Shown piece after piece: positions 2,504 to 26,239 of a stretch of DNA of 27,141 bases. Numbering within the stretch: the stretch's first letter is position 1; every line of letters begins with the position of its first letter. Under the pieces are notes generated by a model. The model had not been told where the DNA came from and searched no databases. It was given only the letters and a program-made list of their open reading frames with translations. The stretch comes from Terramyces sp. JEL0728 (Eukaryota; Chytridiomycota; Chytridiomycetes; Rhizophydiales; Terramycetaceae), in contig JADIIU010000156.1 of assembly GCA_027603945.1 (NCBI GenBank), positions 1-27,141 on the forward strand. Direction: 5' to 3'. A program made the translations under genes and the position numbers.

Positions 2504-3583
2504 TTAAATAGACTTTTTAAAAAACAATCGCCAATCAAGCGGCTGCTCTACATCAAACTGCTCTTTCGGTTGCTTTTTAGGGAGAGGCAGTTCAAGGTGA
2601 TGTGCTGGCAGAGGTTTGTTGAAAAAGTAAGAGTCGAGCAAGGCTTCACTAGCTGATATCCGCTTGCTACTCTGATAAATCAAAAACTTTTCCAGTAACG
2701 CAACAGCCTCTTTACTGGCATCAGGGCATATAGTTTGGATCGGCACTGCTTTGGTTGTAGGAAATTGTATCTTGTTATAATCGGGCAGGTTTTCCAGTTC
2801 CTATGATTAAAAGAGAGTACTGGCCAAGATTCAACAGCTGGAGTGCCAAGAACAGAAATAACACTGAATAGCTGATCGATATCGTTTTGACCAGGGAATA
2901 GCGGCGAGTGGTTCAGCAGTTCGCCAAATATACATCCTACCGCCCACAAATCAACTCCAAAGTCGTATTTCCTTGCACCGTACAATAACTCTGGAGCTCG
3001 GTACCATCTAATTAGAAAATAAGATACCTTGTAGCAACTTGGTGCGAGTAAGGACGAATAGTTTCCAAATTGCAGACCCTGGCAAGCCCGAAATCAGCTA
3101 GTTTGAGTATCCTGTTTGGCGAAATCAATAAATTGGCTGGCTTCAAGTCCCTATGCATGATTTTGTTGGAATGGCAATAAGCAATGCCTTTAAGTATCAT
3201 GAGCATATAAGCTTTGGTTTGCGGTTCCGTCAATGGCGCAACTCCATTCTTCAGCACTTCAGCCAAATCAGAAAGCATATATTCAAACGCCAACACGAAT
3301 CCAGTGCCTGATGGAAATACCTCGCGCAATAGGACTACATTTGGATGGTTGAGTTGTTCCAATGCTGTATTAGTAAGAGTTACCCTTGATTTCTCTAATG
3401 ATGGTTGTTGGAATGCCATTTTCAAGCTGCAGTAAATTAAAAATTACTTTTCGCAAAGGTACTTTTTTCAAAGCTACAATTTCCCCCGTTTTTACAAAAG
3501 TTGCTTTCAAAACCACGCCGTGAGCTCCTTCGCCAATCTATTTAATTTTAATTTACTTTTTCAAGGATATTATACTGATTCAT
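2504..3583 (-). CDS. CDK20: Cyclin-dependent kinase 20 (CCRK) orthologue
   Basis: Ser/Thr kinase of the CDK20/cell-cycle-related-kinase family, 326 aa after removing five introns: 3538-3556 (19 nt), 3427-3447 (21), 3365-3383 (19), 3008-3027 (20), 2801-2820 (20). N-terminus [20 protein letters not shown] carries the Gly-rich loop; then the Lys in VALKKV, a PSTAIRE-like helix [13 protein letters not shown], the CDK20 hallmark [15 protein letters not shown], catalytic [20 protein letters not shown], and the T-loop [21 protein letters not shown]. The C-terminus retains [17 protein letters not shown], close to the human tail. Without the introns the Gly loop, T-loop and C-lobe fall in different frames. 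In animals and algae CDK20 controls cilium length and Hedgehog or cell-cycle signalling; in fungi Crk1-type relatives act in cell cycle and mating. It converges on the PHI-1-like gene. Confidence 0.93.
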
Positions 3584-4038
3584 TGATTACTTGATTTTTT
3601 CAGGGGCAGAGCGTGATTTGCGGGGCACAGATGTATTCAAAAATCAAGCTTATTCAAGGCCATTTAGCTGCCCTTTAAGGCAACGCAAATATTGCCGATA
3701 CTGGAAATATTCTTTATTGATATAAATGGACATGAAACCCTTTTCATGAATTTTTCCTGTGTGGGGACACTCCAAATTAAAACAGGGCGGTATTGTCCCG
3801 TAAATTAGAAAATCAAAAGCAGGTCGACGACGGCATTGCGGCTCTATTTTTTTAAAAGCTGGTTTTCTGATATTTCATTCTCTTTGAAATTCTGCTGTCT
3901 GAACGAAATGGTCATTTGGTAGCACAAAACCCACCTCGCACCCCCTAGGTGCCGCATTTCTGTCCTAAAGCCCTTGGGTAAAAGACAAATGTTCCTTTTT
4001 TGGCCCACTCAAGTCAAAATGATGTGTGGCACCATTAG
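3584..4038. other. Spacer upstream of CDK20 and the AT-hook gene
   Basis: A divergent promoter region with no coding sequence I can support. It holds G-rich patches such as GCGGGGCACAG and AGGGCGG and T-rich runs, but no recognised element apart from the TATA box just beyond its end. Confidence 0.5.
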
Positions 4039-4046
4039 TATAAATA
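4039..4046 (+). promoter_or_regulatory. TATA box of the AT-hook gene
   Basis: TATAAATA lies 25 nt before the ATG at 4072, the same short TATA-to-ATG distance seen at other genes here. Confidence 0.5.
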
Positions 4047-4071
4047 TAGCTAGGGTAAATTGGACGAAAAA

Positions 4072-4353
4072 ATGGTTTGTCGTAAAAAGCTTATTCCTGT
4101 TAAATCGATATCAGTCGACCCTCTGAACAAGGAAGAAATGGGGATTATTCAGCTAGACGTTTACGCAATATTACATTCCAAACCCTCCAGTTTGCTGTAC
4201 CGTAAAAGAATTATAGAAAAGGAAATACCAGTCAAGAGGGGAAGAGGAAGGCCAAAGAAAATCAGACCTGTTAGCGACTCTGGTTCAGAAAAAGAACCAA
4301 GCTCGCCTAATGGAATGTATTTTTCTGTTGCAAAAACCACTGTAAAGAGTTAA
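4072..4353 (+). CDS. Small AT-hook protein
   Basis: A 93-residue basic protein with no family I recognise. The clear feature is an AT-hook core, KRGRGRPKK at about residues 55-63, which binds the minor groove of A/T-rich DNA; it is followed by a Ser/Glu-rich acidic patch (SDSGSEKEPSS). The first 45 residues (VCRKKLIPVKSISVDPLN...) could be a small fold. Start ATG 4072 follows a TATA box, and an AATAAA lies about 10 nt after the stop, which supports a real short gene. No intron is needed. It is probably nuclear; function is inferred only from the AT hook. Confidence 0.6.
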   Translation: MVCRKKLIPVKSISVDPLNKEEMGIIQLDVYAILHSKPSSLLYRKRIIEKEIPVKRGRGRPKKIRPVSDSGSEKEPSSPNGMYFSVAKTTVKS

Positions 4354-4414
4354 TCATTTGTAAAATAAAAAACCATTGCAAGAGTATTGTGGGGTGTAAT
4401 TAATTTTCTTGCGG

Positions 4415-4690
4415 CTACTGGAGGACCACTTGCAGCACACGAGCATCAAGGAGAAAGTCTTTTTCCTCTTTGATGTTGCATAGAGATTGCAAAGAGCCCA
4501 TCAGTCTATCAGTTATGAAAGGAAACTTTGTTCCATTGTCGAGAGAAACTGCTGCCCAAACAGCTAATGAACTGCTTAGAGCGTACACAGTTCTTGAAGG
4601 TAGCTTCTGGTTGGTGCTTAAAGAATAGCAAAATACATTTAATAAGATGGCAAATACAATTGGCAAATACAATTTAATAAGATGGCACAA
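4415..4690 (-). other. Open frame downstream of NoxR, unknown
   Basis: An open frame of about 91 codons ends at 4415-4417. The last 65 residues (KLPSRTVYALSSSLAVWAAV..., ending in LLDARVLQVVLQ) look protein-like, with a hydrophobic segment. There is no ATG near its 5' end: the frame begins inside the NoxR 3' end, and its first third is the A/T-rich duplicated tail of NoxR. A GTA...AAG stretch of 20 nt at the KLPSR boundary could be an intron, but no upstream coding exon was found. It may be a fragment of a lost gene or a chance open frame. Confidence 0.25.
4643..4688. repeat. Local duplication of the NoxR tail
   Basis: The bases around the NoxR stop are repeated just downstream. On the minus strand GCCATCTTATTAAAT occurs twice, and ATTGTATTTGCCA recurs between the copies, so the stop codon and following A/T-rich bases are duplicated. 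Confidence 0.7.
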
Positions 4691-6001
4691 AACACCAGAT
4701 ATCCAATTTAGACGGATTAGGTGCGGTTTCTATCGCTTCGTTCAAATCATCGTCATTAGACATGACACATTTCTGCCCAGATTCATCCAAGAATTTAATC
4801 AGCAACTCTTGATTCTTGAACTTTTTACGGACAAATTCAAGTAGCTCATCGTAAATCACATCATCAGGAACAAGGATCATTCGAGTATCGTTAAAAGTAG
4901 CTTTTACGCGGATCTGTTGTTAGCAAAAGTTACCATATCGTTAGGTATAGAGATTCCTGATGCTGATACTTCTGATCTTGGCGATTCTGCTGCTAACCCA
5001 GGTCTTCTTTCATAAGGTTCATTTTGCGACAATGAGGATCGTCTTTGAGTGATCTGCACAGGCTTCTTTTTAGCGTCATCCAAACTGATGTAGTTTGGCT
5101 TGGCGCCGACAGAACTGCTTCTCTGTCTGATACTAGAATTGCTGCTTTTGGATAGGGTTGGTGCTCTTCTTGATAAAGTAGCATTGATTTGTACATTTTC
5201 AGGGATAGTTGTTGGTAAAGCAGGTACTGGACTTGTCTTGTTCTTTTTCCTGTAGTTTCTTCCCAGTGTCATTTCTTTCACTTGTCTGCCAGAGAACCCG
5301 TCAAAGTTGTCGTTCAAGTTGTTTGCAGCAACAACAGTGGATTTACCAAGGTAGTCGACTTTTTTTGCATTCTTGATATTATCTTCCTGTGGGCGATATA
5401 CGGTAGTATCTGGAATCTCATATGGTAATATTTTTGCTGGCGCTTGCGATCCTAAACGAACGGCTTCTTGTATTTTACTGGTATCAGGCCTAGTTTCGGA
5501 TTGATTGGCTAGATCGAGCGCTTCGTTAAAGTATTTCATTCCTCTGTCCTCATCTCCAAGCACCAGGAAACACAGGGCCAAGTTGAAAATGACATGGGCC
5601 GCATGTAGAGTATAGTCAAGCCCTAATTGAGAGTAATTGATAAAGGTATTTGAACGGAGTCTATCGTAGCAATCTTGATAGCATTCCAACGCAGTTTCTA
5701 CATCGTCTGCGTAATAATAAATAGCGGCTTTCTGGAAATATGCAGCAGCCAGGTAGGGGTCGCACTGAATTGCTCTGTTGAACGCAGCAACCTATAATTA
5801 ACAATAAATACTGCTTCCTCGCTATCTTTTAGTTTCATTGCAACCATCCCGACATTAAAGTGTAATTTGGAAATGTCTGCAAACTCTTGAAACTGGAGTA
5901 GAGATAGCTTGTAGTTGCCCTGGTCAAACGAAGTTAAAGCCGTAGCCCACTTGATTAGTTGTTCCTAGCGTAAAATTATGAATTACTTTGACAGTACTCA
6001 T
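4674..6001 (-). CDS. noxR: NADPH oxidase regulator NoxR (p67phox-like)
   Basis: Cytosolic activator of fungal NADPH oxidase, 421 aa. Three introns: 5965-5986 (22 nt), 5792-5811 (20), 4914-4933 (20). The N-terminal half has TPR repeats: FADISKLHFNVGMVAMKLKD, then VAAFNRAIQCDPYLAAAYFQ, then YTLHAAHVIFNLALCFLVLG. The activation segment follows (TTVYRPQEDNIKNAKKVDYLGK), then a Ser/Pro-rich linker and a C-terminal PB1 domain that starts IRVKATFNDTRMILVPDDV and has the acidic cluster SNDDDLNEAIE. The third intron must be removed to join the linker to PB1. Like other fungal NoxR it has no C-terminal SH3 domain. In known fungi it works with Rac, Cdc24 or Bem1 and NoxA/B to make superoxide at growing cells. 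Divergent from the TEAD-like gene. Confidence 0.93.
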
Positions 6002-6408
6002 GCAGCAATTGGTTGGGTTGCAGAGTTTTTTACCCTTTGAATTTATACTGCCGTAGGCTCTTACAATGGGCTTGCCACTTGAAAAAAAAAGCCTTCATTC
6101 GTGTTATTCAATATTATTCAGTTGTTTCATATTTTGCCCTGAAAGCCAGATTAAAATATACGGAAATGAATCCTTTATGAATGCATATTCGTGATTAAGC
6201 GGTTTTTCCATGTTTTACTCACGCAATGCAAATTTCCAAGCTGAGATCTGGTCAAGCGGCTTGGACTTTGAAACGCTTTGAATATTCGGGTTCGCACAAT
6301 CAGTATCTTGCATCATTCCAGCAGTATAACTAAGCTTCTATATTTTCGGCTGACATCACTTGCTTGCAGGGGGTGAATAAAAGTCACGCAAAAGTTTAAC
6401 AAATTAAA
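6002..6408. other. Divergent promoter of NoxR and TEAD-like genes
   Basis: 407 nt between two divergent starts. I searched it for an upstream TEA-domain exon of the TEAD-like gene and saw none of its signature residues. No other gene is visible. Confidence 0.55.
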
Positions 6409-7188
6409 ATGATATCTGATGCAGTTTATGTACTACGAGCTAATCCTAGGCCAAAGATTATTTATTAGATAAAGATATTCGCAAACGAACGCAGTTGCAG
6501 ACAATCAGACAGGCGTCGCCGCTAATGTTTCTCCGCTACCTGTATTTATTCATAGACCCGTCAGATTCTATTTACGATGTAATTCCAGTTAATGTAGAAC
6601 CCTAGACATGCTCTAACATGTCACTCTAATTTGCCAGATGATTTTGTGGAAACAGTTTCAGTCAGTGATTTTGAACCGGGGGTAATCAAATCTGCTTTTA
6701 ATCTGTACGGGTTCGCCTCTTTTTATTACTTGAATGTAAATCTTGCTAACAAAGATTCGTTTGGATACAACAGGGCTACCACTTGGAGATGCAAAATCAA
6801 TGATCTTGGTTGAAACTCCGTTGCAAACATGTGTATCATGTACAACTTCTATTTATTCTTACGACGACCTCATCTTGGAAACCAAGGAGGCTCACAAACC
6901 TCTACGCGTGCAAGAAAGCAATTATATTTACAAATTCGACTTTGTCCGAGAATACTGGTAGATTACGTTAATCATAGGACTGCGTTTTTGAATGGGTTCC
7001 AGTTATTATCGAACGAAATCGAAGCCAGTATGGCGATAGAGAGCCTGACCATTATCCAAGTATCTTGTTTTAACCAGGTTTTTCATTGCGTGGACGAGAG
7101 GATGCAAGAAACTCCGCTTCTCTGTTTAGCGTACAAATTCAGTGGAGATGGAGATGGCTCTGTAGAAATTTCCCAAATATTAGAATAA
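6409..7188 (+). CDS. TEAD-like YAP-binding-domain protein without TEA domain
   Basis: 227 aa (233 if the last intron is not spliced). Introns: 6430-6449 (20 nt), 6579-6597 (19), 6736-6754 (19), 6958-6977 (20), and candidate 7060-7077 (18). Start MISDAVY, then AKDYLLDKDIRKRTQLQ. The rest aligns along its length with the C-terminal immunoglobulin-like YAP/Vestigial-binding domain of TEAD/Scalloped factors: VSCTTSIYSYDDLILETKEA against TEAD VTCSTKVCSF...VVEKVETEYA, and LTIIQVF...QETPLLCLAYKF against FTIL(Q/L)VV...QETLLCIAYVF. No TEA DNA-binding domain is present in or upstream of the gene. Function is inferred: a co-activator-binding partner or a diverged transcription regulator. The stop lies inside an AATAAA. 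Family call is from remembered sequence, not a search. Confidence 0.7.
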
Positions 7189-7189
7189 A
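7184..7189 (+). terminator. AATAAA containing the stop of the TEAD-like gene
   Basis: The TAA stop (7186-7188) is part of AATAAA. Confidence 0.6.
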
Positions 7190-7383
7190 TTAAATAGATT
7201 TTTATGCGCATCTTTGCTGGCTTCATCCCCTTGCTTCATTGGGATGGCGCAATCAAACAGGCTTATCAATAAAAAGCAGGGCACAAACAAGTTAATTGAA
7301 GGCTAGCGGAAACCACTGCTCAGCCAGCGTCCAGGCTTGGAGTTAGGCTACATGATATGTGAGCTAAGTATCAAGCAATCTCC

Positions 7384-8291
7384 TCAAGCAGAATATTTAT
7401 TAGAGTTTACAACAACCGAATCTCCCAGCAAATTCAGAGCTGGTTTGGCATCCTTGACAACCGTCGTATTAGCCGTCAGTCCTGATGGTTCCGCTTTCTC
7501 TGGCATTGTAGACTCCAATGAAATCTGCCTTCCCCTTCGCAGCGCCAGGATTTTAAATTGATCAAATAGCAGCGACAGAATAGTGGAATGTAGCCCAATC
7601 ATTGCACATGAGATGTCATAAATCTGAGCAGATTTTAGTGTCTGTCTATCGTATTTAGATACAAGAAACAAGTAGAATGTGAACCAGTTCAGCCCGCAAG
7701 TACCAATCAGCGAGTAAATCAGCACCTTTAACCTGAATGTCGTCGTGATTGTCAGCTGGGTCAAGTGCTTGTAAATCAAGTACGCAATATAAAACATTTG
7801 AGCGTTGGAAGAAAAGATGAGTATAGCCAGCCAAGTGTCAAACGAAACTGAAAGAATCTGGATTAAAAACAGGTTACAGCTGCAAGCACTGGGCTATTCA
7901 CATATAGCTGGTACACAAATGTACCTATAAACAAGGCGTACACTGTAATTACCGTTATAAACCCAAACCGTATTCCTTTTTCTGTAATCCGCGTATCCAA
8001 AATTGAAAATATTTCCAGTGTTTTCAAGTGCACAAAACACACGCCGATTGAAATTAACTGGATCCATATTCCTTGCACGAGGAAATTAACCACGTCTTTT
8101 GGATATACGTTGTAGTAAGCTATTCGCTGTGCACATCCAACAATGTTCATAAATTGCAGACAGATAATGTACCTGATTATAGGCTGTTTTATATCATTGT
8201 GGATTAGGTATTTGATTGTGATTGCTGCGCTTGCGAGAGTTGTCGAGATTAGTATTGCGAGTGTGATATACTGAATCAATTCTGCATTCAT
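7384..8291 (-). CDS. 7TM protein a (receptor-like family)
   Basis: 295 aa, seven hydrophobic segments, extracellular N-terminus of only a few residues. One intron, 7858-7877 (20 nt: GTAACCTGTTTTTAATCCAG), joins ...NSPVLAA to ILSVSFDTW at the loop before TM5. It shares with the five other family members the TM3 end HLKTLEIFSILDTRI; its TM6 has GLNWF in place of the usual LDW, and its TM7 has LHSTI...FDQFKIL. It has a longer, polar C-terminal tail. I chose ATG 8291, which puts TM1 directly after the start as in the relatives; an in-frame ATG at 8354 would add 21 residues. It is not assigned to a known GPCR class; a receptor or sensor role is inferred only from topology. ACGTCA sits directly before the start. 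Confidence 0.75.
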
Positions 8292-8292
8292 T

Positions 8293-8298
8293 TGACGT
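8293..8298 (+). promoter_or_regulatory. TGACGT element at the start of 7TM a
   Basis: The hexamer lies one base before the chosen ATG; on the gene strand it reads ACGTCA. Confidence 0.45.
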
Positions 8299-8487
8299 GG
8301 AGAAACTTGTGTTTGTCGCAGCAAAACAAAAACACAGAAGGAAATTTGGTTCATTTACCTCTAGTTTCCAGACCCTATTGCTACTTGTTTGCGCAGGTTT
8401 GGCAGGCAGCTCTTCGCGAGTCAGTCCTTAAATTTGGACAATACCAGAAGTGAATAGAGTACCAATTCGTTAAAAATGAAAAATCGC

Positions 8488-8493
8488 TTTATT
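8488..8493 (-). terminator. AATAAA containing the stop of 7TM b
   Basis: The stop TAA (8489-8491) is embedded in AATAAA. Confidence 0.6.
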
Positions 8494-9326
8494 TTGCACC
8501 TTTTGTGTCCTCAATGTCATGCTGTTTTTGCTTTTGCTCGAAACCATTCTTTGATCTCAGTTCCTTTGTCGCTAACGTTCTGAATTTACTGAAATTGTAA
8601 GCAGCTAGAGCGCAATGCCAGCCACTAAGAGAAACCGTAATCGCCCGTCCTTCTTCATACTGATACCCAGAGAAATTCAAGTAGTTGTAAATGTAATAGC
8701 ATAGAGCCAGCCAGTCGAGTGAAATCATAACCCCAATTGAAAATAACACAGCTCTTACTTGTGCTTTAGATTGGCTGGTGGTGGACACTCGGTGCTTGTT
8801 GATCAAAAATGTCAAGTAGATGCCTTGGAGGGTAGTGTAGATAATCCCACACCCCAAGATTGCCATATAAGTAAAATTTGACAACTACGATCAAGAAAAA
8901 TATACGTTTCCTATCTCCTGGTTTTCTGTATAAATGTAAATGTCATAGGTAACTTCGCAAAACAAGAATAGTAGTGAAACTATGATTTTCGCATAGTAAA
9001 TGTACCTTCTGTTTATGCGTTTGTCAAGGCTGCCAAATATCTCCAAGCTGTTCAGCTCTATCATTGTTATTCCAAACTTGTTAATGATGCCTTACCACTA
9101 GGAAATCTGCCAGGAAAGATCTTATTACCATGCTAAACCGTGGGATTGGGTAGGACAAGAGGATATACACCAGGAACAGCACTCCAATCATTTGAACAAG
9201 CTGTGTCAGTAGCATCCACTTGTAGATGAGCTTTGTGCGATACTCTCTCTGGCTATAAATTGCTATGACGGCCACAGAAGACAGGAACGATATTGCCATC
9301 GTAATTTTCGCTACTTGATCAGCCAT
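8489..9326 (-). CDS. 7TM protein b (receptor-like family)
   Basis: 265 aa, start MADQVAKITMAISFLSS. Introns: 9077-9095 (19 nt) after SFLADFLV and 8885-8905 (21 nt) after NQEIGN. Seven TM segments, with family motifs ELNSLEIFGSLDKRI (end of TM3), MISLDWLALCYYIYN (TM6) and WHCALAAYNFSKFRTLATKEL (TM7 into the tail). The Lys/Gln-rich C-terminus is short. Without the introns the frame stops after TM3 and again before TM5. It is the closest relative of neighbours c and d, so the block arose by tandem duplication. The ligand and pathway are unknown. Confidence 0.8.
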
Positions 9327-9337
9327 TTAGAAAACAA

Positions 9338-9343
9338 TGACGT
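9338..9343 (+). promoter_or_regulatory. TGACGT element at the start of 7TM b
   Basis: Eleven bases upstream of the ATG, in the 31-nt gap to the neighbouring stop. Confidence 0.45.
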
Positions 9344-9356
9344 AAAGAACATTACG

Positions 9357-9362
9357 TTTATT
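9357..9362 (-). terminator. AATAAA containing the stop of 7TM c
   Basis: The stop TAA (9358-9360) is part of AATAAA. Usual cleavage 10-30 nt downstream would fall at the start codon of gene b. Confidence 0.6.
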
Positions 9363-10155
9363 TTTCTGTTGCTTCCATTTGAGATGCCAAGTCTTTGGTG
9401 GTCAAATCCTTGAATTGGCCAAAATTGAATGAGGCTATTGCGCAGTGGATGCCAGTAACCCCCAAGCATATCGCGCTTACAAGGTCATGCTGGAGCCCAT
9501 CCAGGTAAAGGTTGCCATAAATGTACAATGATACCGCAGACCAGTCGAGTAATAGCATTACACACATACTGCAAATCAAGACTTTTCTTTTCCTTATTGA
9601 CATGGAGGTATTCAATTGTCGGTGATGCATAATCAGTCTGGTGATATACATTCCTTGCCAATTGACATAAACAATACCTATAACTATAATTGCTAAATAT
9701 ACTATATCAGAGATCTCGTTAATCCTTCCTTACCTGATAGAGAATCTGTGCCTGCGTATTCCATATGTAGATATTGTACAACAGCTCTACCACGAACCCC
9801 AGGATAACCAAAGCCCATCGAGCATACGCAATCCACTGCTGTTTTAGTTTAGGGTTCAGTACCCCGAAAATACTAAGCGTATGCAAATCAATGTACAAAA
9901 TCCCGTACGACTTGTTTAATAGCAACTTACAATAAAATCAGCAACAAACGACCGAACCCCTTCCAAATAAAACGGCACGGGATAATATAATAAATAGTAC
10001 GTTGTGAATACGATTCCAAGCAACTGCACGGTTTGGACGAGCAAGATACACCGATAAATGAACTTGTCGGTGTACTTGTACTGCGAGTAAATGGATATAA
10101 CTACAACAGAAGATATAAATGAACTTCCTAGCACGATTTTAGCTCCTGTGTCCAT
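9358..10155 (-). CDS. 7TM protein c (receptor-like family)
   Basis: 252 aa, start MDTGAKIVLGSSFISSVVV. Introns: 9911-9930 (20 nt) after VADFI and 9715-9733 (19 nt) after QILYQ. Seven TM segments. Family motifs: DLHTLSIFGVLNPKLKQQW after TM3, MLLLDWSAVSLYIYG in TM6, and IHCAIASFNFGQFKDLTTKDL in TM7 and tail. Only 38 nt separate its start from the stop of gene d and 31 nt its stop from the start of gene b. Function unknown; receptor-like by topology. Confidence 0.8.
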
Positions 10156-10190
10156 CAGTTTTATTATAAAAATTCAATTTTTGATGGCAT

Positions 10191-10196
10191 ACGTCA
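10191..10196 (-). promoter_or_regulatory. TGACGT element of 7TM c, sharing the stop of 7TM d
   Basis: On the minus strand TGACGT begins with the TGA stop codon of gene d and lies 35 nt before the ATG of gene c. Confidence 0.45.
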
Positions 10197-11003
10197 TTGT
10201 CGTGGTTCTGTAGCTTTTACATGAGATTCCGAAAGGTAGTCTGTGCTGCCAACTGTTGCTAAGCGCTTGAATTCACTGAATGTGTATGATGCTATTGCGC
10301 AGTGGACGCCGCATATTGATACACCTATACACTTGATAGCTGTTCGCTGCAGGCCGGTTGTAGATATCCCATAGATGAAATTCGCTACGCCAATCCAATC
10401 TAGCGATACCATAAACATAACCATGCCAATCAACATCCACATCCGGCGGGGATCTTGGTCAATCCGCGACTTGTGGATCAACAGCGTGATGAATATTCCC
10501 TGCCAAGTAATGCATATTATCCCAATGATCAATCCAGCCATATAAGTATAGTTATTAACCTGGATCAACAATCAGTTACAGTTAGTAGTGTTTGGTTGAG
10601 ATTTAGCAGGTAAATATTGTAAGAAGCCTCGATGAATAGCGCAAATACGATTAGAATGTATTTGGCGGCAGTTATCCATCTCTTCTTTATCCGCGTATCA
10701 AGCGTCCCAAATATCTCCAACGATTGTAAATCAATATAAAAGATCCCTGAATTAGGAAAGCGTACCGTAGATCATGAAATCAGACAAGAATGAACGGATA
10801 CCTTCGCACCAGAATGGCAATGGATGATACAACAACAAGCACTCTAAAAAGAGTATTCCAAGGATTTGTACAAACTGGACAAGCAGGATACACTGGTATA
10901 TGAATTTTGTTCTGTAATTACGGGTGAGGTAGATGGATACTACTATTAACGAGCATAGGAAAGAGAATGAGAGGGTGGTATGTGCAACTATTATTTCAAT
11001 CAT
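10194..11003 (-). CDS. 7TM protein d (receptor-like family)
   Basis: 256 aa, start MIEIIVAHTTLSFSFLCSL. Introns: 10747-10765 (19 nt, phase 1 inside the Gly codon of IYG) and 10560-10579 (20 nt) after QTLLT. Seven TM segments with DLQSLEIFGTLDTRIKKRW after TM3, FMVSLDWIGVANFIYG in TM6 and VHCAIASYTFSEFKRLA in TM7. First of four tandem paralogues and 52 nt downstream of the homoserine kinase stop on the same strand. The ATG at 11003 was chosen because the frame has no earlier ATG and TM1 follows at once. Confidence 0.8.
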
Positions 11004-12145: not shown

Positions 12146-12151
12146 TTTATT
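12146..12151 (-). terminator. AATAAA overlapping the stop of the GPI protein
   Basis: On the minus strand the sequence CTAATAAAC overlaps the TAA stop at 12150-12152 with the AATAAA signal. Confidence 0.55.
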
Positions 12152-14508
12152 AGAGGAGCAAAGCAAATAAGAGTGGGATAGTCAACATAAGTAGACCGTA
12201 TCGTTCCGCACTTGATTTGGCACTAACAGTTGGATTTGAACCTTGGGCTGTGGCGGTATTTGACGGTGAATTTACTTGCTTACATTGTTGCTGCCATAAG
12301 GCGCCTAATATTCCAAAATCACTGCTCAATACTGCTGCGTTATTCTTGAACACTTGCGCTTCGGCCACTCCGCACGACGAACAAGGTAGAGAATAATATC
12401 CATTTGGAAGCAAGAGACTAAAGACTATGGTCAGTAAAATATCTACCTTCCTTGGCTACTTCACTAGGGAACGTCTCTAGACAGTAATCGTTGCTTGATG
12501 GATCTGTGGTGCACAGGAATCCAGTTAAAGCTGCAACAAAGCCAGCAATTTCTGAACCAGTGATTGGATTTGATTGTCCGAATTGAGCAATAACTTGAGA
12601 AGCGCAAGCTTGGTTGATATTTGAAGCTGCGTTTGTCAGAGCACTGCCACAAGTTTGACCGCATAAAGTGTTTAGCGACTCTGGAGATATTTCAGCACCT
12701 TGGAAGTTGTCTCCTGGGAAACACGCCGGGCCAATTGCGTTGCCACTAGCATTGACTGCTTGAACACACTGGTTAGTCAGTTTTGAAAAGTCGATCGTAA
12801 ATGCATTTGCGCTATTTGCACAGAATTGGCCAAGGTTGGCCAAGAAATTGTTGACAGCTTGCGCTGCGTCAGGAATCGCAGAGTTATTCCCGATTGCAGA
12901 AATCATTCTATTTACACACGTAGAACAAGTAGCGTTGTAAACAACATTTGGAATTAATGATAAAGAGTTGGTTAAACCCTGAATCCATTGGTTAATAACA
13001 GTGTTAATGCAGTAGCGATTAGAGTTTGGCTCTTTTGCACAGAATGCTGATTGTGCAACCGAGAATGAATTCCCAACTTGTTTTGCAGTCATATTTGCTG
13101 TAACTCCGTAATACCCAAGAATTTGATCTGCACATACTGGTTCAACCTGTCCAACAAAGCCTTCAATTGCTTGTTCACATTGAGAAGAGCAGTATTTGTC
13201 CAGGAATGTTGTATTGTAAACACCTGTATTTGGCACGATAATGTCTGGAATATTAAACCCGCAGGCACTGGCCACGCCGTTAACGGCATTTGCTGCAGTA
13301 GATTGGCATTGCATCATGTTAGGAGGAATTAAGCTTGATGGCAAGACACCTTGCTGGCAAGTGCTATTCAAAAACAAAGCAAAGTCTGCTAAACCAGGTG
13401 CGGCAGCTTGAATAATAGAGTTTGAAGAACTTGTAAGTAACGTTACTTCGTCTAAAGCACACTGCGAACAAACTGGACCACTGGAGTTGAACGAAGGCGC
13501 GCCAAGAGAAGTCAGCACGAAATTGATTGCATTTCCAAACACGCTACCAAGAATATTTTCAAGACAGTAAGTACCTCCACGTTTCAGACAAAAGAATGAT
13601 TGGATTTCGGTAAAAAGATTGTTGAAATCAGAAATCGAAGATGTTAATCCAGCAACACTGATGAGATTTTCGGCACAATGACTGTCCAATGCAGAAACAA
13701 AGTTTTTTACCGCGTTTCCACACGTAGCATTGCAGATTGGATCTAAAACTGCTGGATCAAACAAAGCACTGCTATTCCCATTCCCATTCCCATTCCCATT
13801 CCCATTTCCATTTCCATTTTGAGGGCTACAAGCCGTTACAACCGCAGGGGCAGCAGATACAACTTGGGAAGTACACGATATTCCACTTGTAGGTAAAAGT
13901 TGGAAATAGTTTGGCCCTCCACCGCAGAATCCTTGCATAGCTTGGTACAATGCATCAATTCCCTTGGCATAAACTCCAAATAGAGCTTCATTTTGCTTAA
14001 TCGCGTTCATAACTTGCTTAAAACAGCTACTGCAGAAAATAGTGTTCATTTCTTGTTGTCCAATTCCATTTTTTAGCATGGGAATGACACTTTCCCAGCA
14101 GTAGCTGGCAGGTGAGTTAGTGGTATCTTGAACACATTCGATAGCTGCAGCTGCAGAGAAATAGTTTTGAATGGTAGCTGTAGTAACATAGGAGCCGTTG
14201 CCAAAACCAAACAGATTTTGGCCAGCGCAGTATGGATTAATGTAATTAACATAAGCTGCTACCGCGTTTGTACAGTTATTCGATTGACACATACCAGCAT
14301 AGTTGAATGCTCCATTCGTTGGAGGGATAACGTACTGGTGATTGTTGTTTGTGTAATAAGCGGGGTAGTCATGTTGGAAACAATAGCCTTGAAGTGGAGT
14401 TGTGTATGCCCAGTTATACATGGCCTGGTGACACGCATTAGTAACGTCTGGGGGGAAATTAGGGCCCTGAGTAGCAGTAACGACCGAGATGAGCAAACTA
14501 CAAATCAT
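12150..14508 (-). CDS. GPI-anchored cell-surface protein with four 8-Cys modules
   Basis: 778 aa after one intron (12425-12446, 22 nt). Start MICSLLISVVTATQG is a short signal peptide; an in-frame ATG at 14583 would add 25 residues. Four modules follow, each with C-x(3,4)-C-x14-C-x(28-30)-C-x(7-11)-C-x(21-31)-C-x2-C-x(29-33)-C, starting near residues 74, 259, 440 and 616. Between modules 1 and 2 is a (GN)n linker coded by a hexanucleotide repeat. The intron is supported because it alone supplies the last three Cys of module 4 (PCSSC...QQQC) and the C-terminal GPI signal, SSAERYG followed by LLMLTIPLLFALLL. Many N-x-S/T sites. I do not recognise the module family. Likely wall or membrane surface. 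Confidence 0.85.
13775..13820. repeat. Hexanucleotide microsatellite in coding sequence
   Basis: TTCCCA repeated about five times, then the variant TTTCCA; on the coding strand it encodes alternating Gly-Asn in the linker of the GPI protein. Copy number probably varies between strains. Confidence 0.85.
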
Positions 14509-15034: not shown

Positions 15035-17557
15035 CTACTTTCTTCTCTTGTTCTTTTGCTGCTCCTTACGCTTCATTGCCCTCTTTTCTTTCTTCATTGT
15101 ACCATCAACCATCTACATTAATGACAAATACCTTATATCTACCCTTAACCCCTTTAGGTCTGCCTTGAACACCGCGATATGCGCCTTTAGCAACAACGAC
15201 CTTAAGTTGAGGCTTTTCAGATTTGCCTTTAGATCTTGCTCTGGACATGACTTTGCTTGCTTGTTCAAGCTTGGTTTTTTCAGATAAATCTTCTTGGTTG
15301 GCCAAGCCTTCGGATTTCTTTGCAGCCTTTTCTAATCTGCGTTGAGTACGCAATTGTTTCCTCCACTTGGCTTCAGCAATCTTCTTTATAGGTCGGGCGT
15401 CAAGAGCTCTCATTTGTTGACGCATTATATCAACTGCTTCTTTAGTCACTGGCATTGTAGGCTTGTTGTGTCTATTTTCGTCTTGAGAGAACCTGTCATA
15501 AGTAACAATTACCATGCGGGTAATCCTTCTGAGTCATTAAACGCATATCGATTGAAAGAGTCATCAATTAAATCACGCTTGCCAGATTTAGTAACCATCT
15601 TTTGGGCGAGAGTGTATGCTGCAGCAGAATCAATAATGTTTCCATCTGTATTAACAAATATTACCATCAGACTCTTCGTCGGATTCTGGTCTTTCGAAAT
15701 CCTTTTGCAAAGGGACGATTTCAAACCCTTTCGATTCTTTTTCTTCATCAGAATCCAGATCTTGAGACTTTTTCTTTTTCTCCTTCTTTGGTTTCATTAC
15801 TAGTTCATTATCGAATAAACTATCTTCAAATTTGTCTTTTGTGGATTCAAAGATTGGATTATCAAAGAATAATTTAGCTTTTTTGGATAATTGTTCCTCG
15901 CTTTCGAATGATCTCTTGTTTGCAGGCAGAGCAAGTTCCCCTTCATCATCAGAGCTACTATCTGAATCAGATTCAGAGTTGTATTCAGCAGAGCTTTTGG
16001 TCTTTATTTTCTTGTCTGATTCAAGGCCGTACCATTCTTCAAATGCTTGTGAAGCCTCCTTTACTTTTTTGACTTTGGCACTTGGATTTCTTTCCAATCT
16101 GATTTTTTCGTATTGTTCATACATGGTATCCATTTCAGAATCTAATCTTCCAATTTTACGCTCCAATTCATCATCCGAATCGTCAAAGACTGAATCGTCG
16201 GCGTCTTTGTCAGAATTCTCGTCTTCACTCCCATCGGCCACAGTTTTCTTCACCTTCAGGTGTTCTTTGTCATCTTCGCCAAAATCAATATCAGGCAATG
16301 CACCCATATCGCTTTGTCCTTCAATACCAATATCAGCAGGTGTTTCCATACCGAGCTTCAATTTCAACAGCTGCTTTGCTTTTCTTTCCCTTTGCTTCTT
16401 TTTCAATTTGCGCATCTTTTGCTCCATGGTTTCTTTTTCATTCTGGATAATATCTTCAATGTCCATTTCTTCCTCTGGTTCTTCTTCCACGGCCTTTTCT
16501 ACTTTTTTAGGTACCAAATCCATCATTACACGGACAGAATCTCTCCATTTAATGAGTTGCTTAAACTCTTTTTTACCCAATACCTTTAAATCTGATAAAT
16601 ACTCAAGAATTTCGTCACTGGTTAATTTGCTATTCTTGATTTTTTGACTGAATTCATCATCTCCAAATACAAATGCGCTTGAGCGAGATAGAATTCCAAG
16701 AAAATCCGGACTGTTAATGAAATCACTCAAGGTATTTTTAACGTGAAGAGTGTAATCTCCATCTTCGTAACCTTCTCTTTGTCTCTTTCTCTTTTCAGGA
16801 TGGAACAAATCATTCAATACAGCACCTTGCCTTTCCTTGATTTTTTTCAATGATTCTTCTTCTTGAGGTTGGTCATCCATTTCCTTGAAAGCAAATTTGG
16901 GATCCAATAGTCTAGGATCAATCTTTTTAGGAGCCAAATAATCTCTGCAAACAACAAAGATTTCCGCAGAGACATTACGAGATGCAGTTGGTTTGGTTGC
17001 TTCTACTTTTCCAAATAGCTGATTGAATACCCACATCAACTTGTTGTAATCTTTGGATCTGAAGACTTTTGTAACAAAAGTACCGCCAGGCACCAAGAAT
17101 TCTGTAGCTAATTTACAGGCAGATAGTGTCAATTCAGATTGAGTGAAAGCATCTTGTGCCCACGAAACACCCACATTTGGCGCACCGTCATGCATGACTA
17201 CATCCGCTTTCCAGGTTTTTAAATCCCTCTTGATTGTGGTTCTGCAACTTGGCGTAGTAATATCTTCCACATGTGTAATTACTCCTGGAATTGGTTTAAT
17301 CTTTTCCAAATCCACACCAATGATAATATTTGGTTTTGGCATGTACTTGACACACACTTGCAGCCAACCACCCTACATTAAATAATTCATACTGGTGCAG
17401 CACACAAGTCGATGGCACATTTTGACTTTTCCAAAAAGTTGTATTTCTTGTTTAATTGAATTAATTTGAAAGCGGAACGAGCTCTGTAGCCTTGTTCCTT
17501 CGCCAAATGGTAGAATTTATCCAGTCTCCCTTTGGCATGTTTTTTAGTTACACCCAT
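15035..17557 (-). CDS. SPB1: 27S pre-rRNA (guanosine-2'-O-) methyltransferase Spb1
   Basis: Nucleolar AdoMet-dependent 2'-O-methyltransferase for 60S ribosome assembly, 814 aa (yeast 841). Four introns: 17373-17392 (20 nt), 15646-15664 (19), 15493-15512 (20), 15113-15131 (19). N-terminal FtsJ/RrmJ domain: [23 protein letters not shown] loop DLCAAPGGWLQV (rebuilt across intron 1), catalytic Asp in [11 protein letters not shown], Lys in [11 protein letters not shown]. The middle is the DUF3381-like region and long acidic/Lys-rich stretches; the C-terminal Spb1 domain has [33 protein letters not shown] and a basic tail ending KNKRRK. Introns 2-4 are required to join the C-terminal domain in frame. 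Confidence 0.97.
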
Positions 17558-20869: not shown

Positions 20870-20883
20870 TTGTTACTTTGTAA

Positions 20884-21789
20884 ATGCGACATCAGACAAG
20901 CATTTCTGCGGATACCAGTCTTTCTCTTGTAATATTGCTCATTGCTGCTGGATCAATATTCACCATCATTAAAATCGCATATTCCAAATCACTATCCACA
21001 AAATTCCGACGGATGTTTATTCTAGCACTTGCAGTGAATCTCATAGTAGGGTTTCTGATAGAGCTGTGGTTACTTGCTTGCTATCTAAACACTGCACTGT
21101 GCGAAGCAATATTTCCCTCAAATAATTACGACCCGATATTTCTGACAGTAACATTTATTTGCGATACCCAAATGTACATTCTATTTTTATTCAACGTTGA
21201 AATTCTCTGGATATTTTCAGTTTTGGATTCCAAAGTAAACCCCGCTCTATTAAGAGGAATGGTAGTCGGTTATACGGTCATGTTTATTGCTCGGTTGGCT
21301 GATCTAGCACTAACCACCGTTACATCCGGTACAGCGGCCAAAATATTTCACGTTATTGTCGCTAATGCCTTTGGTATATCACTGGTACTCTATGACAATA
21401 TTCAAAATGTTTATCTGACCATTCTGGTATTCCGCTTCAACAGAAATAGCACCTTGGTTAACATGGGAAAGACAAACTTGATATATCTGCAGAAGATGGT
21501 ATTGAGCATCCTGGCTGTTGGGTTTTTGGATTGGGTTGGCGTGTTTCTTTCAATAGAAGCAACCATTAACCACGAATGGGAAAATCACTTTGGATTGGCT
21601 TCCTGTCTCATTGTATCTCTTCATACGTTGGCGCTGGTGTATTTGATGAATTTGCTTAAAGAGTTTTCGTTCTCCAAGTCGAAATCTATGATTGACCAAA
21701 TTTCAGATCGGCAATCTGTGAAAAAGGGTGTGCTGTTGAAGGATTTACCAGAGGATCTTTACAGCGAGAGAAAGACTGTTAAGCTGTGA
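20884..21789 (+). CDS. 7TM protein f (receptor-like family, intronless)
   Basis: 301 aa, start MRHQTSISADTSLSLVILL, seven TM segments and no introns. Closest to protein e: NVEILWIFSVLDSKVNPALL after TM3, NAFGISLVLYDNIQNVYLTI in TM5 (e has MGSVLYDNVQNGYLTI), VGFLDWVGVFLSIEA in TM6, and LHTLALVYLMNLLKEFSFSK in TM7. The tail ends LKDLPEDLYSERKTVKL, matching the end of e. Role unknown; receptor-like by topology. Confidence 0.83.
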   Translation: MRHQTSISADTSLSLVILLIAAGSIFTIIKIAYSKSLSTKFRRMFILALAVNLIVGFLIELWLLACYLNTALCEAIFPSNNYDPIFLTVTFICDTQMYILFLFNVEILWIFSVLDSKVNPALLRGMVVGYTVMFIARLADLALTTVTSGTAAKIFHVIVANAFGISLVLYDNIQNVYLTILVFRFNRNSTLVNMGKTNLIYLQKMVLSILAVGFLDWVGVFLSIEATINHEWENHFGLASCLIVSLHTLALVYLMNLLKEFSFSKSKSMIDQISDRQSVKKGVLLKDLPEDLYSERKTVKL

Positions 21790-22232: not shown

Positions 22233-22366
22233 ATGTACTCTGAAGACGAAAGACCAGGACGCGGCGGACACCACAAACCAGGAGGTAAGCTATGCTAATA
22301 GTAGGTGGCCATAACAGCCCTCACCGCCCACCACACCATGGAGGTGGCCACCATGGTGGGCATTAA
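22233..22366 (+). CDS. 37-residue His/Gly-rich peptide, spliced
   Basis: Two tiny exons separated by a 20-nt intron at 22285-22304 (GTAAGCTATGCTAATAGTAG). The peptide starts MYSEDERPGRGGHH and ends PPHHGGGHHGGH; about a quarter of its residues are His and a third Gly. No signal peptide. His clusters of this kind often bind Zn, Cu or Ni, but this is inference. Support for a real gene: a TATA box 28 nt upstream, a canonical intron with CTAAT branch point, and an AATAAA 19 nt after the stop (22386-22391). No family recognised. Easily missed by gene finders because both exons are far below usual cut-offs. Confidence 0.7.
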
Positions 22367-22571: not shown

Positions 22572-23578
22572 ATGTCCGCTCAAGAACAATTCTCTGCAGC
22601 TACTTCAGCTCTATCTTCAGCATTTTCCAACTTTACTACCTCTCTTAAACCTCTGGGAGATAACGTTGGTAAACAGTGGGTTCAAGTTTCCCAAGTACCG
22701 TCTCGCTAACATAGTTTGCAAAGGAAAAGATTGGCGGAAACGCAGATGTCACTGAATTACCAGCAGAGTACCGCCAACTAGAAGAAGTATTTCTGATTAA
22801 CGTTAGAGAGTTGACCGCGTCAAACTAGTAAACGAGCTATTGCTCAAAGTCGGAAAGAACTACTCCACTCCAAACTACGACTATGTCCCTCCATTAAACG
22901 ACAAACTAAGCGACTTTGCCTCAGTAGTATCTGCAAATGCTACTTCATTAACACAAAAATTGTCAGGGTCAACAGAAAACGTCTCAGCTCCAACCCATCA
23001 GGAAACACCACCATCTTTATCACACGCATTTGCTAAATCAGCTTTTCAAAGTGCAGAATTGATCGGAACAGACGAACCATTAGGTACTACGATAATAACA
23101 AAGGCGCTGCTTTAAAGAAATTCGCAACCAGCGAAGAAAAGATGGGCAATGCAAGATTACAACAAGATCAAGACGCGGTCCGTAAATTCTGCGTGCCATT
23201 AGTTAATGACTTGGATACCGTTATTGGAGATGCCCTTGTAATTTGTCACTAACCTAGAAATCACGCCGTAATGTTTTATCTTGCCGCCTAACCTATGATT
23301 CATGCCGTGCCCGTCTCAAGTCTGCAGCTCCACCAAAGCAAGAGCAAGTTCGCGCAGAAATGGTTGCCGCTGAAGATGAATTTGTCGCAGCCGTAGATGA
23401 AGCCATGGGTAAGATGAAATTAGTTGTTGAGAACGGAAAAGTTTTGAGAAATTTGGCTGATTTGGTAGCCATCCAACTTCAATATCACAAAGCTTGCTTT
23501 GACGCTCTTTCTGACTTGTCACCAGAGTTGGATGAACTTGTAGTCACTAATGAAGCTCTCTACGCTCCTACTCAATAA
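22572..23578 (+). CDS. Gvp36-type BAR-domain protein
   Basis: 308 aa after removing four introns, each exactly 20 nt: 22695-22714, 22787-22806, 23084-23103, 23238-23257. Together they restore one frame through a sequence that otherwise has several stops. N-terminus MSAQEQFSAATSALSSAFSN, then the domain: KIGGNADVTELPAEYRQLEE, VDRVKLVNELLLKVGKNYST, YDYVPPLNDKLSDFA, ALKKFATSEEKMGNARLQQD, SCRLTYDSCRARLKSAAPPK and a C-terminal helix ending DELVVTNEALYAPTQ. It matches the fungal BAR_2 family of yeast Gvp36, which binds curved Golgi and vesicle membranes in endocytosis and vacuole integrity. The stop TAA is inside AATAAA. Confidence 0.93.
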
Positions 23579-23579: not shown

Positions 23580-23616
23580 ATATGTGATTTAGTTTCAAAA
23601 AAGAGCTACAGTATAT

Positions 23617-24507
23617 TTAAGTGCAAGCTTGACAACTGCCAACTCCGCCAGATAAAACACATTGCAAACCTGGAGCACAATCTTCAAGTACATACCCAGT
23701 GCTTCCAGTAGAATCGGTGTTGACGCAGATTGCCAAAGTATTTCCTGAACAAGTGTACTGCCCAACAGTGCATCCAGTAACAGCAGAGAGATCAGGATTA
23801 GTTGTACATGTGTTGCTAGTGGTTGAACATTGGTATCCACAATAAGCAAGTCCATCACCTGCCACACATGAAGTTCCTTGCGGGCAAGCAGTGACAACAT
23901 ACTGGTTATTGAGGGATCCGAAATTACACGATGCAATTGAACCGGCCTGACTGGTATCGCCAGAGCAAGTAGCGTACCCAACAATTTGAGAAGCACAGCT
24001 GTCCCCATTGTTAATGGTTGGATATACGGTACACGAACCTTGTGTTGTTATCGGATGTATGGTTTTTGAAGTTTGGCAGAGGTTGACACCATTAGAAAAG
24101 CTGGAATATTGTAAAAGACAGCCTGAAGTAGCACCACACCAGTCGCTACCAGTTCCACTATTATCAGCAAGCACTTACCAGTAGCCAAACTTTGAACAAC
24201 ATCCAGCTGCACAGACTGGAACCGCAGAGTTTGCTCCACATGTACCGCTAGGGTTTGCAGGTGGTTGAGGAGCAAGGCAGAGACTGTTTCCAGACGAATC
24301 TAATTGGGAATACTGCGTTGAACAGTCAGATCCAGCTCCACACCACGCATCACCAGTCCCACTGAATTAAAATAGCGCTTACCAATAACCAAATTGTGAG
24401 CAGCAACCGATTGTACAAAGTGGAAAAGCTGAATTTGCACCACAAGTAGCAGCGGAGTTGGACTGAGAATAAACTAGACCGAGGAAGAGATATGACAAAT
24501 ATTTCAT
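23617..24507 (-). CDS. Secreted chitin-binding protein, two CBM18 plus CBM19-like modules
   Basis: 282 aa. Signal peptide MKYLSYLFLGLVYSQS. Two hevein-type CBM18 modules follow: CGANSAFPLCTIGCCSQFGY with CGTGDAWCG, and CGANSAVPVCAAGCCSKFGY with CGTGSDWCG. Each is interrupted by a 21-nt intron (24362-24382 and 24158-24178) in the same codon, between TG and T of the Cys after GY; without splicing that codon would run into a stop. The C-terminal half has Cys-rich modules such as NPDLSAVTGCTVGQYTCSGN...APGLQC that resemble CBM19. It should bind chitin in the wall or mask it; no catalytic domain is present. Two paralogues follow upstream on the same strand. Confidence 0.88.
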
Positions 24508-25006
24508 TATTCTGACGATATTTTAGTAATTTGCTGCTCTTTTAAACCATTCCTCCCGCTGTCTCCGAAAAGCGCATTCAGAAAGTCCGATTGAAATACC
24601 TATAAAAGGTGGTCGGAGGTGTGGTTATAAAGAACGGAATAGTAGAAAGATCACTTGCATGTGCTTGCGTTGTCTATTAAAAGACCACAGAACTAGGATA
24701 ATGAAATCATCGGCAATGTTGAACGAATACGTGAAATAGCTGTAGTGAACAGATGCCGCAATTTCAAAGGATCCTTGATGCGCACAAGAGATATCAACTG
24801 CGGGCAGTATCGATTTAATTTCATCTCGTGTAGCTCCACTGCAGCAATCAATGATTTAGACCCCCCAATCCAGATCAAAGATCAAATAGCTTATTCCATG
24901 TCTGTTCTTGTGCAAGGAAATATGAAGCAACAAGTTCCTCATGAACGTAGATTATCAAAATCATCAAGATAAGCGTGTAAATCAAAAGCAAAATATATTG
25001 ATTATT
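24508..25006. other. Spacer between chitin-binding paralogues 1 and 2
   Basis: No gene I can fully support. Plus-strand TATA-like boxes TATAAAAGG (about 24601) and TTATAAAG (about 24623) precede short open frames at 24659-24820 and 24745-24972, but no splice pattern of this genome's type joins them, so nothing is called. Confidence 0.4.
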
Positions 25007-26239
25007 TCAACAAGCCAAGCAACCAACATTGTAAGGGAAATATTGATCGTTGAGCACCTGGCACTGGTTAGTGCCAGGGCAGAGTGTCATATGATAAACG
25101 TTATTCAACGGATTGGAGTCAACTTGAATACACTGCGCAACTTGAGTACCTGAACAAGCCCACTGTCCAAAAGTACAGCCAGTAACTTTCGACAAATCAG
25201 CATTTGCGGTACAAGTTGTAGATGGAGCAGAGGTGGTTTGCGTAGGAATAGGATTGATCTTTTTGGTAGTTGTTTGAGTAGGAATTGGGTTGATGTTTTT
25301 AGTAGTAGTGGTAGTTTTTGGACACGATGACGCAGCTATGCATTGGATATTGTTAATTCCCACCTGCAAACATTGAAGACCAGGACCACAAGATGAAACA
25401 ACGTAAGCAGTGTCGTAGTTTACATCAACATAGTTACAGATTGCTTGTGATGTGCCTGAACAAGTTATTGTACCATATGTACAACCAGTAACACCTGTCA
25501 AGTCGGGATAAACCGGGCAGGTACCAGTGGACGTTGGAGCTGTGGTGGTAGTAGTCATAGTTGGAATAGGGTTGATTTTTTTGGTAGTCGTAGTTTGTGT
25601 CGGAATTGGATTAATCTTTTTGGTAGTAGTGGTCACAGTAATTCCCTGGCACGATCCACTATTGATACAGATAACATTGTTCACGCCAATCACAGAGCAT
25701 TGAGTGCCAGGGGAGCAAGGCGTAATCACCCAAGCTGTGTTCAAGTTGATATCAACATAGTTGCAAACAGCTTGTTCAGTTCCAGAGCATGTAATTGCAC
25801 CATACGTACATCCAGTCACACCATTCAAGTCAGGATATACTGGACAAGTACCCGTTGCAGTTGGAGCCGTGGTGGTAGTAGTCTTAGTTGGAATAGGATT
25901 GATATTTTTGGTAGTTGTGGTTTTAACAGTGGTTGAGCTAGTCTGGGTAGGGATAGGATTGATATTTTTGGTTGTGGTGGTGGTAGATTGTGGTGCCAAA
26001 CAGAGATTAACTCCGTTGATAGATTGGGAGTACTGTGTCAGACATCCAGAGTTAGCACCGCACCAGGCTGTAGCTGTACCACTAAAATTATTGAGGAATT
26101 ACCAGTAACCAAATGCAGAACAACAGCCAATAATACAAGTAGGCACTGGAGAGTTTGGTCCACACAACCCGCTTGGATTTGGGGGTATTGTGGTTGTGGT
26201 TTGAGCCAGCGCGATACCAATCAAAAAGATCTGTTTCAT
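25007..26239 (-). CDS. Secreted chitin-binding protein, CBM18 plus three CBM19-like modules
   Basis: 403 aa. Start MKQIFLIGIALAQ is a signal peptide; an earlier ATG is out of frame. One CBM18 module, CGPNSPVPTCIIGCCSAFGY followed by CGTATAWCG, is split by a 21-nt intron (26082-26102) at the same Cys codon as in the neighbouring paralogue. Then come Thr-rich linkers with six copies of K(N/K)INPIPT, alternating with three CBM19-like modules, for example CPVYPDLNGVTGCTYGAITC and CTANADLSKVTGCTFGQWAC, each with a GTQC/GLQC-type end. The linkers look O-glycosylated. Likely a wall-associated chitin-binding protein with no enzyme domain. Confidence 0.88.
25057..25078. repeat. Perfect 9-bp inverted repeat in coding sequence
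   Basis: Arms CCTGGCACT and AGTGCCAGG around the 4-base loop GGTT, inside the last CBM19-like module, where it encodes CPGTNQCQV. Confidence 0.6.

Follow-up and report, generated by a model that had tools for sequence, protein, structure and literature searches.

Can the genes of a free-living fungus be interrupted by spliceosomal introns of about 20 nucleotides (nt), and would an ordinary spliceosome suffice to remove them? This question is raised by contig C156 (JADIIU010000156.1) of Terramyces sp. JEL0728, a chytrid belonging to the order Rhizophydiales, analysed here over its whole length of 27,141 bases (hereafter the window), one of the 231 contigs of a 15,016,339-base assembly. An earlier note on the window had listed 32 introns, nine of 19 nt, sixteen of 20 nt, five of 21 nt and two of 22 nt. 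Re-reading by coordinates returned this list and added one intron of 18 nt, which brings the tally to 33 introns in 13 genes (18 nt, one; 19 nt, nine; 20 nt, 16; 21 nt, five; 22 nt, two). All 33 start with GTA and, as had been stated for the acceptor, all 33 end in AG. A TRA triplet is present in 33 of 33, and 22 of 33 have a YTRAY motif whose A precedes the last G by 5 or 6 nt. From these sequence features and the analyses below, we consider it very likely that the 33 segments are U2-type introns, which a largely conventional spliceosome is predicted to excise, and that they belong to the only length class that rises above noise in the sampled genome. The size of the Terramyces introns is close to the smallest in any known organism.

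Intron length class in the sampled genome

The analysis covered 275 kilobases (kb) of the 15.0-megabase (Mb) genome. The main sample was 200 kb (20 contigs, 10 kb from each), and a further 75 kb outside signal training was held out, consisting of six pieces, namely five further contigs and the window, the long frames of which had gone into the codon table. We counted GTA..AG segments that link two reading frames, each open for at least 40 codons. In the 200 kb, these frame-joining segments numbered 32, 60, 38 and 17 at 19, 20, 21 and 22 nt, while each of the remaining lengths between 12 and 59 nt had 3-25. At 19-22 nt the decoys CTA..AG, GTA..AC and GTA..GA gave 2-12 segments and GAT..AG gave 9-14, while TTA..AG (6-14) and GC..AG (12-24) likewise formed no peak. 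Segments of the form GT[CGT]..AG numbered 14, 34, 19 and 16 over the same four lengths, and the 34 at 20 nt are a real-looking rise, as expected of real non-GTA introns.

A gene finder with a flat intron-length prior from 12 to 150 nt, which requires GT..AG and rewards a branch-like TRA motif, was run on the same 200 kb. A codon model with the other reading frames as background was dropped, as the finder collapsed under it to 31, 30 and 27 genes. The finder called 273 introns in 71 gene models: one shorter than 18 nt, 182 at 18-23 nt, 31 at 24-59 nt and 59 at 60-150 nt. With six pairs of decoy signals, the calls at 18-23 nt numbered 4, 5, 5, 8, 8 and 17, of 123-251 calls each. A second class above 23 nt was first suspected and then rejected: at 24-150 nt there were 90 real calls versus 112-235 for the six decoy pairs, and since decoys yield more calls above 23 nt than the real signals do, no second length class is visible. 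In the held-out 75 kb, 42 of 66 calls fell at 18-23 nt, with at least three in every one of the six pieces; the decoys placed 1 of 31, 0 of 53, 2 of 45 and 0 of 23 calls there.

The 182 short introns in 71 models (mean 593 amino acids) correspond to about 1.4 per kb of modelled coding sequence, and Terramyces is therefore not intron-poor, though its branch site is tightly placed. By simple scaling of 182 per 200 kb, an extrapolation, the 15.0 Mb would hold about 13,700 short introns. The genome-wide use that the earlier note had proposed is supported by the frame statistics with their decoys, as a sample result from 275 kb of the 15.0 Mb. Its broader point, the wide use of ultra-short GT-AG introns, is borne out by these decoy-controlled statistics together with protein continuity and with presence and absence among paralogs (below). 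In-frame stops stood in 28 of 28 introns predicted at lengths of 18 or 21 nt; this was uninformative, as the finder cannot see stop-free ones.

Donor, branch and acceptor signals

The 182 short introns of the main sample comprise 163 with GTA, 10 with GTT and 9 with GTG donors; the GTA start that the earlier note gave for all its listed introns holds throughout the window and is not universal elsewhere. Acceptors were TAG in 122, CAG in 38, AAG in 21 and GAG in 1. The donor consensus is GTAATT, with T at position +5 in 57% and G in 12%. The G that is usual at +5 has been lost from this 5' splice site.

Of the 182, 169 contain the TRA motif; the distance from its A to the last G is 5 or 6 nt in 150 of these, and in 159 the A follows the first G by 13-15 nt. 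Since the finder rewards the TRA motif, the branch-site test was repeated blind to it over the 275 kb. Of the 191 frame-joining GTA..AG segments of 19-22 nt, 105 carry YTRAY with the A 5-6 nt ahead of the final G. The corresponding counts are 4 among 42 segments of 12-17 nt, 9 among 230 of 24-40 nt and 25 among 335 of 41-60 nt; with other GT donors at 19-22 nt the count was 17 of 109. The +5 base in the blind set of 191 was T in 82, G in 38, A in 37 and C in 34. Together with the window counts, these results uphold the claim of a positioned branch site. The gap between the branch A and the AG is just 3-4 nt, and a T-rich stretch lies upstream of the branch. U12-type introns have a long fixed donor and a TTCCTTAAC-like branch site; the introns described here have neither, their donor being GTAATT and their branch site YTRAY.

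Protein continuity across the junctions

The proteins obtained by removing these segments were compared with relatives and solved structures. The CDK20-like kinase gene (2504-3583, minus strand) holds five introns, at 3538..3556 (19 nt), 3427..3447 (21 nt), 3365..3383 (19 nt), 3008..3027 (20 nt) and 2801..2820 (20 nt). Residues 1-288 of its product align to a solved kinase structure, the protein is 98% identical to the CDK20 of Boothiomyces across 97% of its length, and the five junctions, in the order given, are gap-free in 9, 9, 10, 10 and 10 of 10 relatives. The second of these values is pairwise: a count of 0 of 10 at residue 39 was rejected because an insertion in one relative had opened the alignment column. 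The annotated Boothiomyces CDK20 diverges before the first junction, as though its first exon had been missed.

The gene for the rRNA methyltransferase Spb1 (15035-17557, minus strand) has introns at 17373..17392 (20 nt), 15646..15664 (19 nt, in a low-complexity stretch), 15493..15512 (20 nt) and 15113..15131 (19 nt), and three of the four junctions, all except the low-complexity one, are gap-free in 7 of 7 relatives. An Spb1 exon of the window is 100% identical to the protein of Terramyces sp. JEL0728 at NCBI. That model already takes out three of these four introns, so that data on such introns are already in public records. At 15113..15131 the NCBI protein lacks VKGRYK, as though 37 nt had been cut instead of 19.

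Spliced models from the window recover BAR, TPR and PB1 domains. For the wider sample, 24 gene models were selected for at least two, mostly short, introns; seven were compared with Pfam and three with PDB. The spliced sample models recover AMP-binding, DAHP, Band 7, E2 and M28 domains. Six introns interrupt the acetoacetyl-CoA synthetase gene, and the alignment of its product to 4wd1 shows no gap within 6 residues of any junction (by eye); DAHP synthase, with two introns, is gap-free at its junctions against 9j7h. The U2AF65 gene itself holds four introns of 19-20 nt; its protein aligns to solved U2AF65, and three junctions are gap-free in 7 of 7 relatives, the fourth being too close to the end for scoring. 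In the annotated Boothiomyces U2AF65 the sequence MFLLPCHLLKG, present in Terramyces and Globomyces, is missing, and the protein is joined to a ribosomal L24-like one; this fused annotation looks like a gene-prediction error.

Splicing machinery and proposed mechanism

The U2 small nuclear RNA (snRNA) is full length (140.2 bits) with its branch-pairing GUAGUA intact, and genes for U2AF65, SF1, Prp18, Slu7 and Cwc25 are present in the genome. Several of the splicing-factor genes themselves carry introns of 19-21 nt. The Cwc25 model starts MGGGDLNLKKSWHP and keeps the N-terminal MGGGDLN plug. A short branch-to-AG distance leads to an expected loss of second-step factors; this expectation was not borne out, Prp18 and Slu7 both being present. 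In the SF1 gene (sampled locus L031, reverse strand, 1979-2014), a short direct repeat brackets an insert of about 24 nt that includes a stop codon, and no GT..AG reading at 18-23 nt fits it.

We propose that the 5' site would be recognised by U1 and then handed to U6, while U2 would pair with a branch site right beside the 5' site and the AG 5-6 nt past the branch A would be used as acceptor. The signals would be packed near minimal spacing, with a lariat loop of about 14-16 nt. The mere 3-4 nt between branch and AG leave no room for a pyrimidine tract, and U2AF65 would contact the T-rich sequence that precedes the branch or work chiefly together with SF1. Selection probably holds intron length, because paralogous introns of differing sequence stay at 19-21 nt.

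Evidence against and alternative explanations

Several observations weigh against assigning these segments to conventional splicing and to one short length class. Splicing itself is something we infer from DNA. The splice signals of the finder were trained on seeds of 19-21 nt, and the held-out test was therefore run. Of the 273 calls in the main sample, 91 lie outside 18-23 nt. Above 23 nt the held-out set gave 23 real calls versus 22-53 for decoys, which is about the lowest decoy value, so that rare longer introns could exist alongside the short class; the SF1 model also contains a 36-nt unit for which no short-intron reading was found. At the protein level, the low-complexity junction of Spb1 is gap-free in only one of seven relatives, and frame is the sole evidence for the five introns of the gene at 6409-7188, for one of the gene at 12150-14508 and for one near 22233. 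U1 snRNA was not found in the assembly, by a search that matched no genome at all. For U6 snRNA the assembly gave two sub-threshold matches and none by pattern or BLAST. Both matches were judged to be chance, as they lack the AGC triad and one of them spans a 21-nt intron-like sequence (by eye); the assembly may lack U6 or contain it in split form.

If the introns are real, their removal might still depend on a spliceosome that has been remodelled in its branching factors, a conjecture made for the 15-16 nt introns of Stentor. Loss of the donor +5 G (T 57%, G 12%) would weaken pairing with U1 and U6, neither of these RNAs was recognised in the assembly, and the proteins read here are a minority of the spliceosome. 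However, Cwc25 retains the MGGGDLN plug that is absent in Stentor (PMC9505925; this and the other papers cited by identifier with statements on introns are used for the parts of their text that were available), U2 is canonical, and U2AF65, SF1, Prp18 and Slu7 are present. We therefore hold a remodelled spliceosome to be unlikely.

Assembly indels or the marks of pseudogenes could in principle resemble introns, and two gene copies in the window (1-605 and 1546-2370) do differ by small indels, suggesting that some assembly frames are broken. Such errors would not cluster at 19-22 nt or keep GTA, YTRAY and AG in constant positions, and would leave unexplained both a common intron position in four seven-transmembrane (7TM) paralogs and the exact empty sites in a sister copy of an M28 peptidase gene; this explanation is highly improbable. 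We give equally little credence to a non-spliceosomal route, whether DNA-level excision, translational bypass or tRNA-type splicing. An excised element could likewise have a constant short length and leave exact empty sites, but a GT start, an AG end and a YTRAY 5-6 nt before that end are signals of the U2 type, and SF1, U2AF65, U2 and the second-step factors are all present. Ciliate-type DNA elements end in TA, which counts against DNA excision. U2-type introns removed by a largely conventional spliceosome are the reading that we prefer.

Intron positions in paralogous genes

Tandem M28 peptidase genes lie at 5898-6978 and 7161-8361 of sampled locus L026 (C18:40001-50000). Their products are identical at 219 of 332 aligned residues (66%), and the two genes carry seven introns over six positions. 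One position is common to both copies, with identical intron sequence; each of the other five has a unit of 18-20 nt in one copy and an exact empty site in the other. These differences may be gains or losses, both being possible.

In the window there is a cluster of six 7TM-like paralogs, at 7384-11003 (minus strand), 17991-18872 (plus strand) and 20884-21789 (plus strand). The four minus-strand paralogs have introns, and the two plus-strand paralogs are intronless. All four intron-bearing paralogs, R1 to R4, share one intron at a common alignment column and phase, with lengths of 20, 21, 19 and 20 nt, at a pairwise residue identity of only 21-44%. Three have a second intron within a few residues of one another (19, 20 and 19 nt). 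From the common 7TM position and the M28 empty sites, some intron positions are old, with length kept, and turnover elsewhere looks fast. On a tentative reading taken up below, the exact empty sites at five of six M28 positions would further suggest that new introns may arise at minimal size.

Comparison with known short-intron systems

Introns of 15-16 nt are known from heterotrich ciliates (Stentor coeruleus), with an almost invariant position of the branch A (PMC9505925), of 16-17 nt from mikrocytids (Mikrocytos mackini; PMC10245619) and of 18-21 nt from the chlorarachniophyte nucleomorph of Bigelowiella natans (PMC10245619, PMC2483917). The earlier note had named nucleomorphs and ciliates as comparable lineages, which stands; mikrocytids and, among ciliates, the heterotrichs need to be added. 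Such ultra-short systems have a narrow class near 15-22 nt, and the Terramyces introns fall into one (182 of 273 calls at 18-23 nt).

Terramyces resembles the Bigelowiella natans nucleomorph in a near-equal length range, many introns and a donor that is mostly GT(A). The nucleomorph is, however, a relict endosymbiont with about 800 introns; a branch-point signature is described as absent from Paramecium and nucleomorph introns (PMC2483917), whereas in the free-living Terramyces YTRAY is clear and positioned. With Stentor it shares a single narrow length class, a GTA start and a branch A at a fixed place, and Stentor's commonest intron starts GUAAUU, matching the Terramyces donor GTAATT (PMC9505925). 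Unlike in Terramyces, Stentor introns are shorter, the branch consensus is weak and the branch A is at position 10 rather than 14-16. The Cwc25 N-terminal GGG plug is lost in Stentor and kept in Terramyces, Cwc25 being the branching factor that was read. Ciliates are described as keeping short-intron factors (PMC12862383). Mikrocytids have a similarly narrow length range and conserved sequence, but they are reduced parasites with 224 introns and only 17-19 identified spliceosomal proteins, whereas Terramyces introns are numerous and the tested factors are retained.

GT-AG ends, a YTRAY-type branch site, U2, SF1 and U2AF65 are features of ordinary fungal U2-type introns. These are, in contrast, reported as longer: a survey of 644 fungal genomes cites the Cryptococcus mean of 63 bp as short (PMC8476143), introns of the microsporidian Encephalitozoon are given as 35.8 nt (PMC2483917), and those of Malassezia are called very short, with no number in the available text (PMC7426719). 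A literature search found no report of fungal introns near 20 nt, most subscription papers being outside its coverage. No chytrid intron lengths appear in the available text of PMC6572847, PMC13391722, PMC9138132, PMC11649378 and PMC9894930, and the word 'intron' is absent from PMC3207900 and PMC11797018.

Terramyces may, on a tentative view that we rate as possible and short of probable, be the first fungus to show a collapse of its introns to about 20 nt, with minimal introns still gained and lost. Positioned branch points have been described in a subset of intron-poor species; if the collapse is true, Terramyces and Stentor would be exceptions to the suggestion that a positioned branch needs an intron-poor genome (PMC2483917). 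Thousands of 20-nt introns, the likely number in this free-living fungus, along with tested factors that look ordinary, would lower the size limit for normal fungal splicing. They would also mean that introns of 19-20 nt do not require the loss of the Cwc25 plug that has been proposed to suit Stentor. Terramyces would moreover be a chytrid within reach of fungal genetics for dissecting minimal splicing. Gene prediction errs on such introns, as in the NCBI Spb1, which misses six conserved residues at one of them.

Further introns and other features of the window

A model favouring 18-23 nt supplied 23 of the window introns. The others, in the 7TM genes, one chitin-binding gene and a small gene, came from minimal stop-free solutions, a further finder run and inspection by eye. 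Without length preference, the finder called 22 introns in the window, 16 at 19-22 nt and six longer. Three of the longer calls start at an intron of 20-22 nt and extend to a later AG, one fuses two separate genes and two lie in the putatively damaged copies at 1-605 and 1546-2370. Units of 95, 52 and 128 nt from the further run on the 7TM and chitin-binding genes were rejected, as they resolve to 20, 19 and 20 nt, and a 33-nt unit of a chitin-binding gene from the same run became 21 nt by eye.

The TPR/PB1 (NoxR-like) gene (4674-6001, minus strand) has introns at 5965..5986 (22 nt, placed by the finder), 5792..5811 (20 nt, within the TPR match) and 4914..4933 (20 nt, at the edge of the PB1 match). 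The gene at 6409-7188 (plus strand), which has no Pfam match, has introns placed by frame at 6430..6449 (20 nt), 6579..6597 (19 nt), 6736..6754 (19 nt), 6958..6977 (20 nt) and 7060..7077, the last being the 18-nt intron added here.

The 7TM introns are on the minus strand. R1 (7384-8354) has a single intron at 7858..7877 (20 nt), at the column and phase found in R2-R4. Minimal solutions and paralog alignment place those of R2 (8489-9326) at 9077..9095 (19 nt) and 8885..8905 (21 nt), of R3 (9358-10155) at 9911..9930 (20 nt) and 9715..9733 (19 nt), and of R4 (10194-11003) at 10747..10765 (19 nt) and 10560..10579 (20 nt). R1 and R2 had two minimal solutions apiece, of which the one starting with GTA was chosen.

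Frame places an intron at 12425..12446 (22 nt, minus strand) in the gene at 12150-14508, which has a long exon without Pfam match and a Cys-rich product that is predicted to be secreted. A small gene starting at about 22233 (plus strand), with a weak gene model, has an intron at 22285..22304 (20 nt), set by eye at the start of a 33-nt call. The BAR-domain gene (to 23578, plus strand) has four introns of 20 nt, at 22695..22714 (finder and domain match) and, within the BAR_2 match, at 22787..22806, 23084..23103 and 23238..23257. Both chitin-binding-like genes are on the minus strand and their introns are all of 21 nt. In that at 23617-24507 they lie at 24362..24382 (finder run) and 24158..24178 (start of a 33-nt call, set by eye against the gene at 25007), and in that at 25007-26239 at 26082..26102 (finder and domain match).

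A scan of the window for Rfam families and tRNAs gave zero Rfam matches at the gathering threshold and zero tRNAs. The near-identical gene copies at 1-605 and 1546-2370 differ by frame-breaking small indels and would be either damaged copies or assembly errors by the contig end. Elsewhere in the assembly, match scores were equal or near-equal in pairs, namely C30:109075 with C33:23034 and pairs within C18, C3, C26 and C42, which suggests recent large duplications or duplicate assembly.

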